Source: Natrinema sp. DC36 (GTDB taxonomy: Archaea > Halobacteriota > Halobacteria > Halobacteriales > Natrialbaceae). Taken from it: 64,000 nt of DNA. The stretch spans positions 1,302,001-1,366,000 of the forward strand of contig NZ_CP084472.1 of assembly GCF_020405225.1 (NCBI RefSeq), written 5' to 3'. The notes under the pieces were generated by a model. That model was not told where the DNA came from, ran no database searches, and saw only the letters and a program-made list of their open reading frames with translations. The translations under genes and the position numbers were made by a program. Positions within the stretch are counted from its first letter, which is position 1, and each line of letters begins with the position of its first letter. Shown piece after piece: positions 56,215 through 60,274 of this stretch.

Positions 56215-58515
56215 TCACGCATCGTCAAATCGCTCCCGAACCTCGAGCGCCGCGTCCGTCCCGTACTGATCGACGAGCGGACGGAACGCGTCGCCGAGCG
56301 CCCGCATACACTGTCCCGAGGAGTGGTACTCGAGCCGTTCGGCGATGCTCTCCGCGTCCCGTCCCTGGAGGACGCGCGAGACGAGCAGTCGTTCCTCGCG
56401 ACCGGTCAGGTCGACGGTAGCGGGGTCGTCGACGAAATACCGCACGACGAGGCGTCTGAACGGGCCGGGATCGACGTCGAACAGGCCCGGTCCGTAGGCG
56501 GCACCCGCGACGACGCGCCACTCGTGGTCGGTCAGCGCGAGCGGCGGTCCGGCGTCGTCGACGCTTCCGAGCACCGCGCGGGCGATATCGGGCTCGAGGT
56601 CCTCGAGTGCGTCCGAACTGAGCGCAGCGAACCGCCGGACGAACCAGTCAGCGTGGCGGTCGCGTAACGCCCGGCCCGCGTCGCTGGTCGGCGCGAGCAT
56701 GAGCACGGAGTACTCGCCGCTGGCGGCGTTGCGCGTCGTGGAGACGTGGACCGTCCGGTAGCCGTTCTCGCGCCAGAACTCGAGGAGGCCGGGGGTCGCG
56801 CCGAAGCCGGTCCCGAGCCAGTCGATTGCGGCGTCGTCGCCACCCTCGCTGCGATCTCGACCGTCGTTCTCAGCGCTTTCGGTAAACTCCTCGCGAACGC
56901 GCTCGAGCAACCGTGAGCCGAGCCCCCGCGAGCGCGCTGTGTGGTGGGTCGCGATGCGGACGATGCGGAGTCCCGCCGGCTCGCTCGCCGCCTCGTCCCG
57001 AAGCTGACTCGTCAGGATGTCGGGCAGCATGTTTCCGCGGACGCGGCCGCCCTCGTACATCATCGCGCGGGTCTCCGCCGGAAGGTCCCCCTCGCGTGCG
57101 AGCAGCGCGACGCTGACGACGCGACCGTCGTGGGTGAGCGCGCGGGCCTCGAGGTTCGGCGCGTCGAGCAATCGAGCGAGGTCGTTCGGCTCGGTCCGGT
57201 AGTGTGCGAGGACGAGCAGCCCGAAGGCTTCCCGAAGCAGGCGTTCGTCCGCGAGCAGGTTCTCGGGCTCGAGTCGCCGGTAGTCGACGGTCTCGGGTGC
57301 GGCGTCGGCCACGAGCGGCTCGACCGGTGGGCGGGCGTCGAGCAACAGCGCACGGAAGGCCCACACCTCGATCGGATCGCCCGCCGCGTACCGGATGGGT
57401 TCCACGAGCGTGCAGTCGGTAACGGCGTGGTCGCTCTCGGCGAGCCGATCCCGGAATCGGACCGAGAACCCCCGACCGGCTCCCTCGTAGCCGTGAATCG
57501 TCGTGGCGAACGCGATGCGATCGGCCGTCAGTAGCGACTCGAGGGTGGCGACCGGGAGCGCAGCGGCTTCGTCGACGACGACGACGTCCGCCGACTCGAG
57601 TTCCGCGATCGCGTCGGGGGGCTCGCGGAATTCGACCGAGCCACCGACACCCGTCTCGATTCGGCGAGGTTCAACGGTCGTGGTATCGTCCTCGAGGCGT
57701 TCGCAGAGTTCGCCCGCTCGGTCGAACAGTTCCGACGTGTTACGCGCTGCGGGAGCGGTTACCAGGACGTCCTCGCCGGCGATAGCAAATGCGCCCGCGG
57801 CCAAGCCCGCCGCGCTGGACTTGCCGCGGCCGCGGTCGGCCTCGAGGACGACGGCCTGCCCCCGTTCGAACAGCGACTCGAACGCGGCGACGGCATGGGC
57901 CTGATCCGCCGTGAGACAGGCCTCGTAGGCGGCAGCCGGAAACCGGTGGTCCGGAGGCGTAGTCGGCGTCTTCGGTGCCAGCCGCGGGGCCGGGTCGGTC
58001 AATCCGTCGACCTCGAGCCGATCACTATCAAGGTCGACGATGGCGATCCCGCGGTGTTCCCGCAGCGTCTCGACGAGACGGCGTCTGAACCGACCGGTAA
58101 CGTCGTCCAGTTCGAACGGCGGGACGGCGAGGGAAGCGTCGAATCCGTCGCGGCGGTCCGGCCACGCCTCGAGCGGCGGGGTGAGCAAGAAAAGAAGTCC
58201 CCCGCCGTCGACCGCGCCGACGACTTTCCCGAGCGCGTTCGGCTGAAGTTCCTCGTGAGCGTCGATAGCGATTACGTCCCGCGTGGTCCCGAGGAGGTCA
58301 CCCGCGTTGACTTGCGGAATCCGTTCGCAGCGAAGTCGGTCGTCGGGACCGACGAGCGTCGTCTCGGTGATCCCGACCGGGAGCGTATCGAGGATCGACT
58401 CGAGCGCGTCGTACCCCCGCTCGCGATCGCCCGCGAGCACCAGCAGCCGTCGTTCGTTCGCCCGTGTCGCCTCCTCGGCGAGCGACTCGGCGAGTCCGAC
58501 GAGATCGACGTTCAT
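56215..58515 (-). CDS. tmcA: tRNA(Met) cytidine acetyltransferase
   Basis: 766 residues from the ATG at 58515 (MNVDLVGLAESLAEEA); a further 35 upstream codons are poor. Acetylates cytidine (ac4C) in tRNA and, in some archaea, many other RNAs. Order: DUF1726 N-terminal domain, helicase-like domain with Walker A EADRGRGKSS (about residue 225-234) and VVDEAAALP, GNAT domain (HHTARSRGLGSRLLERV as acetyl-CoA loop), and a C-terminal tRNA-binding domain. Full length. Confidence 0.93.
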   Translation of the reverse strand: MNVDLVGLAESLAEEATRANERRLLVLAGDRERGYDALESILDTLPVGITETTLVGPDDRLRCERIPQVNAGDLLGTTRDVIAIDAHEELQPNALGKVVGAVDGGGLLFLLTPPLEAWPDRRDGFDASLAVPPFELDDVTGRFRRRLVETLREHRGIAIVDLDSDRLEVDGLTDPAPRLAPKTPTTPPDHRFPAAAYEACLTADQAHAVAAFESLFERGQAVVLEADRGRGKSSAAGLAAGAFAIAGEDVLVTAPAARNTSELFDRAGELCERLEDDTTTVEPRRIETGVGGSVEFREPPDAIAELESADVVVVDEAAALPVATLESLLTADRIAFATTIHGYEGAGRGFSVRFRDRLAESDHAVTDCTLVEPIRYAAGDPIEVWAFRALLLDARPPVEPLVADAAPETVDYRRLEPENLLADERLLREAFGLLVLAHYRTEPNDLARLLDAPNLEARALTHDGRVVSVALLAREGDLPAETRAMMYEGGRVRGNMLPDILTSQLRDEAASEPAGLRIVRIATHHTARSRGLGSRLLERVREEFTESAENDGRDRSEGGDDAAIDWLGTGFGATPGLLEFWRENGYRTVHVSTTRNAASGEYSVLMLAPTSDAGRALRDRHADWFVRRFAALSSDALEDLEPDIARAVLGSVDDAGPPLALTDHEWRVVAGAAYGPGLFDVDPGPFRRLVVRYFVDDPATVDLTGREERLLVSRVLQGRDAESIAERLEYHSSGQCMRALGDAFRPLVDQYGTDAALEVRERFDDA

Positions 58516-58673
58516 GCGTTCGGCTTGGTGCCTCGGGAGTAATAGGCTCCGACCCGGGACGGCCAGCCGTGTGGTTGTCAGTTTAGATTGATGTACGGAC
58601 GTTTGCAGTGGAGGATTCACGAGGTCGAACGATCCGTGCGGTGGCGTCCCACAGCCTCACGTGTTTGAACACG

Positions 58674-58681
58674 CTTTTAAG
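58674..58681 (+). promoter_or_regulatory. TATA box of the rpl7ae operon
   Basis: CTTTTAAG, 150 bp before the rpl7ae ATG, with a GC-rich spacer to a predicted start near 58706. It implies an untranslated leader of about 125 nt, unlike the mostly leaderless genes around it. Confidence 0.5.
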
Positions 58682-58705
58682 GGGGGCAGCGCTATTCGAG
58701 TGTAC

Positions 58706-58830
58706 ACCCTACGCGGGGTTGATGATGCTCCTAGCTTCACAGGACTTCCGCCGGGATCCGCCCGGCACGGGTACCCAGTGCCCGGACGGCAGGGGAGCGC
58801 GAGCCCACGTGTAGGAGAGGTGAACAACCA
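58706..58830 (+). promoter_or_regulatory. Structured leader of rpl7ae, possible kink-turn
   Basis: Stem CCTAC/GTAGG (58708-58712 with 58811-58815), stem GGG/CCC (58715-58717 with 58804-58806), then an asymmetric internal loop GTTGATGAT (58718-58726) opposite GCGAG (58799-58803), then stem GCTCC/GGAGC (58727-58731 with 58794-58798), and inner hairpins (GCCGGG/CCCGGC at 58750-58766). Tandem GA on both strands of the internal loop is K-turn-like, the motif bound by L7Ae. It ends with GGAGAGGTG, a ribosome-binding site. L7Ae autoregulation through a leader K-turn is known in other archaea. Confidence 0.5.
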
Positions 58831-59193
58831 ATGTCAGTTTACGTAACTACGGACATCCCAGCCGACCTCGCCGACGACGCCCTTGAGGCGCTCGAGGTCG
58901 CACGAGACACCGGTCGAGTAAAGAAAGGAACGAACGAAACGACGAAGGCGATCGAGCGCGGCAACGCCGAGCTCGTCTACGTCGCCGAAGACGTCTCCCC
59001 CGAGGAGATCGTCATGCATCTCCCTGAACTCGCAGACGAGAAGGGTATTCCTGTCGTCTTTATCGAGACGCAGGACGACGTCGGCCACGCCGCCGGCCTC
59101 GAGGTCGGCTCGGCCGCCGCGGCGATCGTCGACGCCGGCGAAGCCGAAGACGACGTCGAGGACATCGCCGACAAGGTCGAGGACCTCGACTGA
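58831..59193 (+). CDS. rpl7ae: Ribosomal protein L7Ae
   Basis: 120 residues. Binds K-turns in rRNA, box C/D and H/ACA RNAs and RNase P. The core [39 protein letters not shown] (in pieces) and the [12 protein letters not shown] segment are characteristic. Acidic C-terminus. First gene of rpl7ae-rps28e-rpl24e-ndk, preceded by a structured leader. Confidence 0.97.
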
Positions 59194-59204
59194 GGTGATC
59201 AGAG

Positions 59205-59429
59205 ATGAGCGCTGAAGAGGAAGAAAGCGGCTCTACGCCCGCCGAGGTCATCGAGGTCGTCGGTAAGACCGGCATGCACGGCGAAGCCATGCAGGTCAAG
59301 TGCCGGATCAAGGAGGGCGAGAATCAGGGACGAATCATCACCCGAAACTGCCTCGGGCCGGTCCGCGAAGGGGACGTACTCCAGCTTCGCGAGACCGCTC
59401 GTGAGGCGGACTCCATCGGAGGACAATAA
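59205..59429 (+). CDS. rps28e: 30S ribosomal protein S28e
   Basis: 74 residues. [24 protein letters not shown] and the conserved end [22 protein letters not shown] identify eS28. It begins 11 bp after rpl7ae and is followed 3 bp later by rpl24e. Confidence 0.97.
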
Positions 59430-59432
59430 CCA

Positions 59433-59813
59433 ATGGTCGAGAAACGTACCTGCGACTACACTGGCGAAGAGATCGAACCCGGCACGGGCATTATGTACGT
59501 CCAGACGAACGGTACCGTGCTCCACTTCGTCGACTCCAAGGCGGAGAAAAACTTCAAGCTCGGGCGCGAACCGCGCGACCTCGAGTGGACCGAAGACGGT
59601 CGTCGCGGCAAGGGTCCCACGCAGGAAGACGCACCTGCCGACGAGGAGGCCGAGCAGGTTCCAGCCGACGAAGACGAGGACCTCGAGACGGAAGCCGACG
59701 ACGAAGCGGCGGCGGACGTGCCCGCTGGGGACGAAGCCGACGACGAAACCGAGGAGACCGACGCCGAAGCCGAGGAAACCGACGCTGAAGAGACCGAGGC
59801 CGAGGAAGCATGA
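59433..59813 (+). CDS. rpl24e: 50S ribosomal protein L24e with long acidic tail
   Basis: 126 residues. The zinc-binding L24e domain covers the first 62 (EKRTCDYTGEEIEPGTGIMYV, VDSKAEKNFKLGREPRDLEWT). The remaining 60 or so are almost entirely Glu/Asp/Ala with Thr (ADEEAEQVPADEDED...), about as long as the domain. Normal archaeal L24e ends near residue 60. The tail is a haloarchaeal low-complexity extension. Stop overlaps the ndk start (ATGA). Confidence 0.95.
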   Translation: MVEKRTCDYTGEEIEPGTGIMYVQTNGTVLHFVDSKAEKNFKLGREPRDLEWTEDGRRGKGPTQEDAPADEEAEQVPADEDEDLETEADDEAAADVPAGDEADDETEETDAEAEETDAEETEAEEA

Positions 59814-60274
59814 GCGATCACGAGCGTACGTTCGTGATGGTCAAGCCCGACGCGTTCGCACGCGGACTCGTGGGAACTGTCGTCTCTCGACTCGAGGACC
59901 GCGGGCTCAAGCTCGTCGGTATCAAAGTCGAAACGATGCCCCGCGAGCGGGCGGAAGAACACTACGGCGAACACGAGGACAAGCCGTTCTACGACGACCT
60001 CGTCGACTTCATCACCTCGGGGCCGGTCGTCCCGATGGTCTGGGAGGGACAGGACGCGACTCGACAGGTCCGCCAGATGATCGGTGAGACCGATCCGCTC
60101 GAGGCCGCTCCTGGAACGATTCGAGGCGACTACGCGCTCGATCTCGGTCGGAACGTCGTTCACGCCGCAGACCACGAGGACGAGGGTGCGAACGAGCGCG
60201 AAATCGGGATCCACTTCGACGACGACGAGTTGATCGACTACGATCAACACGACGCCGAGTGGCTCTACGAGTAA
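59810..60274 (+). CDS. ndk: Nucleoside diphosphate kinase
   Basis: 154 residues. Balances NTP pools via a phospho-His intermediate. ERTFVMVKPDAFARGLVG at the start and the active-site His in GRNVVHAADH (about residue 121) are clear, with TDPLEAAPGTIRGDYA before it. Begins within the rpl24e stop. Typical length and standard place after rpl24e. Confidence 0.97.
   Translation: MSDHERTFVMVKPDAFARGLVGTVVSRLEDRGLKLVGIKVETMPRERAEEHYGEHEDKPFYDDLVDFITSGPVVPMVWEGQDATRQVRQMIGETDPLEAAPGTIRGDYALDLGRNVVHAADHEDEGANEREIGIHFDDDELIDYDQHDAEWLYE

Follow-up and report, generated by a model that had tools for sequence, protein, structure and literature searches.

A covarying leader structure with a kink-turn core precedes the rpl7ae gene throughout most of the Halobacteriales

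Background

The protein L7Ae plays a central part in ribosomes, in guide RNAs and in RNase P. To our knowledge, archaea have so far yielded few cis-regulatory RNAs. In the 64,000-nt stretch of the Natrinema sp. DC36 genome analysed here (the window), the gene for this protein, rpl7ae, follows a non-coding stretch that an earlier note had read as a leader of about 125 nt with a kink-turn-like (k-turn-like) internal loop and a stem ending at the ribosome-binding site. The question is whether this leader is a conserved RNA element through which L7Ae could limit its own synthesis.

Control of this kind has already been proposed for archaea, Haloferax volcanii included. The passages cited here of Daume et al. 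(2017; PMC5539422) describe binding of L7Ae to its own leader with repression in S. acidocaldarius, repression by UTRs from other archaea in reporter assays, a survey of 121 species, and tests of 50-bp pieces, with H. volcanii among them. High leader conservation is stated in those passages for the Sulfolobales only, and the legend to Fig. 5 refers to a Kt-b strand located farther upstream in the alignment. The cited sections of Huang and Lilley (2019; PMC6298567) report that L7Ae induces the A. fulgidus leader to fold, and describe a GAU bulge with tandem G:A in six other archaeal l7ae leaders. The literature searched, largely confined to papers outside subscription, yielded no structure for a haloarchaeal rpl7ae leader. 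What is new here is the structure, the covariation and the full-length form of the haloarchaeal element.

Results

Genomic setting and predicted transcript

The L7Ae encoded in the window aligns without gaps with chain 1s72_F of a solved 50S subunit, which we take to be H. marismortui L7Ae. Its gene heads an apparent operon, rpl7ae-rps28e-rpl24e-ndk (Table 1), with intergenic gaps of 11, 3 and -4 nt, and the order is kept elsewhere: at the loci of the comparative alignment A1 described below, S28e follows in 59/59 cases, L24e in 58/59 and NDK in 58/59. On the minus strand, a long divergent ORF (56215-58620), presumably related to tRNA(Met) cytidine acetyltransferase, shares with rpl7ae the intergenic region that holds the rpl7ae promoter.

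In the window, a TTTTAA box lies 28 nt upstream of the motif TACA, at which the conserved block begins. Of 86 distinct leaders, 69 share this 28-nt spacing and 13 have 29 nt (82/86 together), the remainder being one case of 27 nt, one of 11 nt and two that could not be measured. From the fixed distance to the TATA box we infer that the leader is transcribed, with a predicted start at about A58704 and a predicted length of about 127 nt, close to the length given in the earlier note. Sequence identity is graded along the region, at 96% for the 5' part of the block, 93% for the promoter and 44% for DNA farther upstream within the genus (20 distinct leaders), and at 78%, 64% and 33%, respectively, in a wider set (94 distinct leaders).

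Table 1. Features of the rpl7ae locus, in window coordinates
Feature	Position	Strand	Basis or remark
TTTTAA, TATA-box-like, rpl7ae promoter	58675..58680	+	Sequence; TTTTA-TACA spacing
TACA, predicted transcription start region	58703..58706	+	A58704 in 59/59; start inferred
P1 5' strand CCUACGCG	58708..58715	+	Covariation
P2 (C-helix) 5' strand GGGU	58716..58719	+	Comparative pairing, RNAalifold
k-turn bulge UGAU	58720..58723	+	3 nt in L026, L082, L093
GA, bulged strand (1b, 2b)	58724..58725	+	59/59
P3 (NC-helix) 5' strand UGCUCCU	58726..58732	+	Comparative pairing
P3b 5' strand	58734..58736	+	Comparative pairing
Apical AGGA (AGGGA in other families)	58741..58744	+	AGG(G)A in 57/59 leaders
Variable inner hairpins	58745..58787	+	Missing or far longer in other genera
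P3b 3' strand	58788..58790	+	Comparative pairing
P3 3' strand GGGAGCG	58793..58799	+	Comparative pairing
GA, non-bulged strand (2n, 1n)	58801..58802	+	A 59/59, G 58/59
P2 3' strand GCCC	58803..58806	+	Comparative pairing, RNAalifold
P1 3' strand CGUGUAGG	58808..58815	+	Comparative pairing, RNAalifold
Shine-Dalgarno GAGGUGA	58817..58823	+	1 nt past P1
rpl7ae, ribosomal protein L7Ae (eL8)	58831..59193	+	TIGR03677, 172.5 bits (cut-off 134.6)
rps28e	59205..59429	+	Shares apparent operon with rpl7ae
rpl24e	59433..59813	+	Shares apparent operon with rpl7ae
ndk, nucleoside diphosphate kinase	59810..60274	+	Shares apparent operon with rpl7ae

Secondary structure and covariation

The leader consists of an outer helix P1 (8 bp), a second helix P2 (4 bp), a k-turn loop and the inner helix P3 with its extension P3b, each formed by the two strands of the same name in Table 1; A58807 is bulged between P1 and P2, and C58800 is unpaired. 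Beyond P3b lies an insert that ranges from a few nucleotides in Halorussus to more than 60 nt longer than that of the window in Natrialba. The predicted fold has an energy of -62.5 kcal/mol (z -3.85), a value reached by 0 of 200 shuffles. All the letters from which the earlier note built its fold could be located (GTTGATGAT at 58718-58726, GCGAG at 58799-58803, the pairs GCTCC/GGAGC and CCTAC/GTAGG, and GGAGAGG at 58814-58820). Its outer stem CCTAC/GTAGG exists but is longer than was drawn, comprising P1, the bulged A58807 and P2, and its internal loop does lie between two stems, except that G58803 is the last base of the C-helix and falls outside the loop.

Stems are easily drawn at high GC, and the pairing could in principle be a chance product of GC-rich sequence. 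A comparative alignment of rpl7ae leaders, which the earlier note had proposed as a check, addresses this point. The rpl7ae loci collected include a set of 110 that contains duplicates of the same genomes. Removal of identical leaders, of leaders longer than 160 nt and of those lacking a match to the motif left 77 leaders; alignment A1 holds 59 of these, after exclusion of 17 near-duplicates, mostly from the family of the window, and of L027. Standard pairs fill 95.8% of the 1289 cells of the structure in A1, and double changes occur in 12 of 22 pairs, with 78 double-change cells compared to 16.4 in shuffled alignments. None of 500 shuffles reached any of the observed covariation measures, and sliding the partner strand lowers standard pairing to 38-55.3%. 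RNAalifold, unprompted, returns the same helices (21 pairs, 12 of them with double changes). Because related sequences inflate counts of pair changes, compensatory events were also counted on a tree built from the coding sequences of rpl7ae. The structure shows 24 compensatory double changes; when the partner is slid by -2, -1, +1 and +2, the counts are 1, 3, 2 and 3, respectively.

The helices also covary in further leaders that had no part in building the covariance model described below, obtained from 43 of 50 sources that matched (L203 is cut off) and yielding 41 distinct rows, in which pairing is 93.7%, 16 of 22 pairs show double changes, and double-change cells number 98 compared to 20.5; this set is partially independent, since it includes some congeners of A1 leaders and L027, which had been seen before, and its alignment (A2), having been made by fitting to the model, is biased in favour of it. 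With covariation, fold energy, tree events and further leaders each compared with controls, chance pairing of GC-rich sequence is ruled out for practical purposes. The mark of an r-protein leader (r-leader), a 5' UTR fold that is conserved, covaries and goes with a ribosomal protein gene, is firmly supported.

Three other pairings were considered by eye and rejected. CUCCUA (58728-58733) with UAGGAG (58812-58817) fails in leaders in which P3 changes (L095, L025), and pairing of CUCCU with the apical AGGA fails in the same two leaders, where P3 changes yet AGGGA stays. Pairing of an apical UUCAC with GUGAA of the Shine-Dalgarno (SD) region is not kept across genera.

The kink-turn core

Between P2 and P3, the bulge reads UGAU, or GAU with an additional U, and is followed by G58724.A58802 and A58725.G58801, in line with the tandem G-A potential on both strands for which the earlier note called the loop K-turn-like. 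The triplet U-G-A (58723-58725) is invariant in all 59 A1 leaders and all 42 further leaders. Opposite, A58802 is found in 59/59 and G58801 in 58/59 A1 leaders and in 34/42 further leaders; the other 8/42 have A (L168, L169, L171, L172, L177, L200, L201 and L205). These eight all belong to family f12 and all carry a C near position -1b that can pair with G58803, so that the AA and the C may represent a linked change within the k-turn. The 3-nt bulge that had been proposed holds in some leaders but not in most. L026 (GGGU-CAU-GA facing GA-ACCC, U-A closing pair) and L082 and L093 (GGGC-UGU-GA facing GA-GCCC, C-G closing pair) are textbook 3-nt k-turns, and L210 (GGGU-GGU-GA facing GA-GCCC) keeps a 3-nt bulge with the letters of P3 entirely swapped; most leaders contain one extra U, giving a register with either a 4-nt bulge or GAU and a bulged U.

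Compared with known l7ae-leader k-turns, the element has the GAU bulge, of 3 or 4 nt, followed by tandem G-A and A-G pairs; it has a C-helix and an NC-helix flanking the loop; and it lies in the l7ae 5' UTR adjoining the SD. It departs from them in one respect, as the predicted fold is not a weak hairpin in the absence of protein, although this trait describes the first examples and may not define the family. In the features that can be examined computationally, assignment to the putative L7Ae-binding k-turn leaders is supported.

The loop also bears some likeness to Kt-15 of 23S rRNA, which we take to be an L7Ae site. In the window's genome this reads GGGC-AAU-GU facing GA-A-GCCC, to be compared with GGGU-(U)GAU-GA facing GA-GCCC in the leader, an apparent likeness that is short and local, with the strand order reversed. 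As the likeness is only local, we rejected the idea that the leader mimics 23S rRNA.

The UUGAUGA strand also resembles box C, and CUGA stands opposite in L077, L106 and L109, which makes it conceivable that the sequence serves chiefly as a processed small RNA or box C/D-like guide and precedes rpl7ae by accident. Consistent with a small RNA, the cited table of PMC5852579 lists HM9_V (27 nt, plus strand) and HM10_V (42 nt, minus strand) in the rpl7AE intergenic region of Haloferax mediterranei; they may represent pieces of the leader together with an antisense read, and a search of 15 genomes for a matching coordinate by which to place them on the leader found none. However, the two letters before GA on the D-like strand differ by genus (GC, GU, GA, CU, UC), no second C'/D' pair is seen by eye, long covarying helices join the strands in place of guides, and the covariance model described below matches through to the rpl7ae ATG. 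With one C-like strand and no conserved D strand, the leader does not qualify as a C/D sRNA, and we consider a small RNA or guide very unlikely.

Distribution

A covariance model of the leader (R1) was built so as to end at the rpl7ae ATG. At E <= 0.01 it has hits in 181 of 195 Halobacteriales genomes, including 155/157 of good quality and 61/66 genera, and the hits run to the end of the model. In the 5.1-Mb genome of the window there is one significant match, which is the one before rpl7ae (E 2.5e-45); the next have E values of 2.0 and 6.1. The Rfam 15 covariance models gave no match to the leader at gathering score, and none at E up to 1.

The 14 genomes without a match fall into several groups. 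Five show no rpl7ae (G019, G049, G059, G110, G196), and in G103 the gene starts 39 bases into its contig, so that the leader is cut. Five others (G026, G042, G054, G064, G028) have a compact k-turn instead, and the remaining three (G030, G045, G035) lack a clear match; of the latter, L027 (G030) scores 13.1 bits, L207 (G045) appears k-turn-like by eye but failed a generic k-turn scan, and L208 (G035) has no visible k-turn. The compact form is a canonical k-turn of about 30 nt, found right before the rpl7ae SD in 5/5 leaders of the deep-branching families f9 and f11 (L029, L030, L211, L212, L213). It has a C-helix and, beyond a bulge of 3 nt and the GA/GA pairs, an NC helix of 5 bp, for example CGU-AAU-GA-CGCGC-loop-GCGCG-GA-ACG, and is apparently a simpler form of the same element.

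In other families of the phylum, many leaders carry, upstream of the SD, UUGAUGA or a similar strand and then a small hairpin and GA. The generic scan detected a k-turn in 16/39 such outgroup leaders compared to 14.4% of shuffles, a moderate discrimination (39 of 40 leaders were scanned, no start having been found for L246), and in 95/107 of the long crown leaders compared to 39.7% of shuffles, which does not discriminate. Because the generic scan discriminates poorly, we relied on the covariance evidence.

Relation to the Shine-Dalgarno sequence

P1 ends 1 nt before the SD, in keeping with the outer stem that had been described as ending at the ribosome-binding site. The best SD-like stretch begins between 3 nt inside and 4 nt past P1 in 58/59 leaders, and in 28 leaders, the window among them, it stands at +1; none was found in L105. 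P1 is predicted to form alone in 58/59 leaders, P2 in 51 and P3 in 49. The apical AGG(G)A is kept in 36/42 further leaders in addition to those of A1, although the underlying helix and the sequence that follows both change freely.

Discussion

Proposed mechanism

We consider it highly probable that the 5' leader of rpl7ae-rps28e-rpl24e-ndk is an r-protein leader in which L7Ae, bound to the k-turn, blocks loading of the 30S subunit. L7Ae made beyond what its sites in rRNA and guide RNAs can take up would bind the leader k-turn (58720-58725 facing 58801-58802), the bound, kinked RNA would keep P1 closed against the SD 1 nt away, and loading of the 30S subunit would be sterically prevented, resulting in less L7Ae and perhaps less of the other operon products. 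L7Ae would very probably thereby shut off its own synthesis by sitting beside the landing site of the ribosome.

Several observations do not sit easily with such feedback by L7Ae. According to the cited part of PMC6298567, leaders of this type should be unstructured until L7Ae binds, whereas the haloarchaeal leader is predicted to be very stable, with P1 forming alone in nearly all cases; either folding is the default state and L7Ae locks it, or the fold in vivo is looser than predicted. Ion-driven folding of the leader loop is not clearly predicted by the rules of that paper for positions 3b/3n and -1b/-1n. Furthermore, the SD lies mainly outside P1, most leaders lack a clean 3-nt bulge, and the f12 leaders have AA for GA on one strand. 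Finally, H. volcanii is reported, in the cited part of PMC3986360, not to use an SD mechanism at 5' UTRs.

Given the predicted stability, one might suppose that L7Ae is not involved and that the leader is a constitutive structure that fixes the translation rate, or that it offers a standby site to which the apical AGG(G)A draws the 30S subunit. Formation of P1 without protein and retention of AGG(G)A in variable surroundings would both fit, but the G-A/A-G core of a k-turn, placed before the gene of a k-turn-binding protein, is among the best-conserved positions, and deep relatives have compact k-turns at the same place, features that a plain stem would not need. We therefore regard a leader acting without L7Ae as improbable. 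Feedback by L7Ae could also take a different form, which we put forward tentatively as a possible though doubtful variant: the hairpin might be pre-folded at high salt, with L7Ae clamping it, either by kinking the hairpin or by locking P1 against the SD, and AGG(G)A would be a second functional site. Under this clamp reading, AGG(G)A may, for example, provide standby for the 30S subunit or make a tertiary contact once the kink has brought it close, and the switching logic would be unlike that shown for A. fulgidus.

Relation to known elements

As we best read it, the element belongs with the known l7ae-leader k-turns, as a large, stably folded haloarchaeal variant that appears to be pre-folded. 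Unlike the archaeal k-turns of Daume et al. and of Huang and Lilley, this one is set within long helices that are stable and covary, and a variable insert is included. In the window, the distance between the two GA strands is 75 nt; in other genera it is smaller or much larger. Since the motif lies at -108 to -110 in Haloferax congeners, the 50-bp H. volcanii fragment of 2017 would lack the upstream strand. The haloarchaeal leaders are also highly conserved, a property that the cited passages of that study state for the Sulfolobales only.

As a structured haloarchaeal r-protein leader backed by covariation, the element resembles the Halobacteria S15 r-leader and the other archaeal r-leaders of Eckert and Weinberg (2020; PMC7247131), which concern a different protein and gene; the cited part of that paper gives four archaeal r-leaders, none for eL8, and eL8/L7Ae is absent from its Table 1. 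The k-turn in yeast L30e mRNA, as described in the cited sections of PMC6298567, is similar in that a protein of the L7Ae family exerts feedback through a k-turn in its own mRNA, but it is eukaryotic and acts on splicing as well as translation.

The element is kept across nearly the whole of an order that is genetically tractable, before the gene of a centrally important protein, and the compact form of the deep relatives together with the elaborate form of the others provides a series for direct comparison of the switching mechanism.

Other candidate sites

In Sulfolobus and Thermococcus, a k-turn regulates nop5 or has been proposed to do so. Haloarchaeal nop5, retrieved here together with fibrillarin, looks leaderless, unlike its counterparts in those genera: among 14 upstream stretches viewed by eye (15 of 30 loci, L254-L283), a TATA-like stretch stands about 25-30 nt before most starts, which argues against a k-turn leader there. 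With regard to a wider L7Ae regulon, the window's genome has no second significant R1 site. Elsewhere, one genome from the genus of G203 gave a second hit to the leader model, though a weak one (L299, G316:C58:56388-56507; E 5.9e-4, 21.6 bits).
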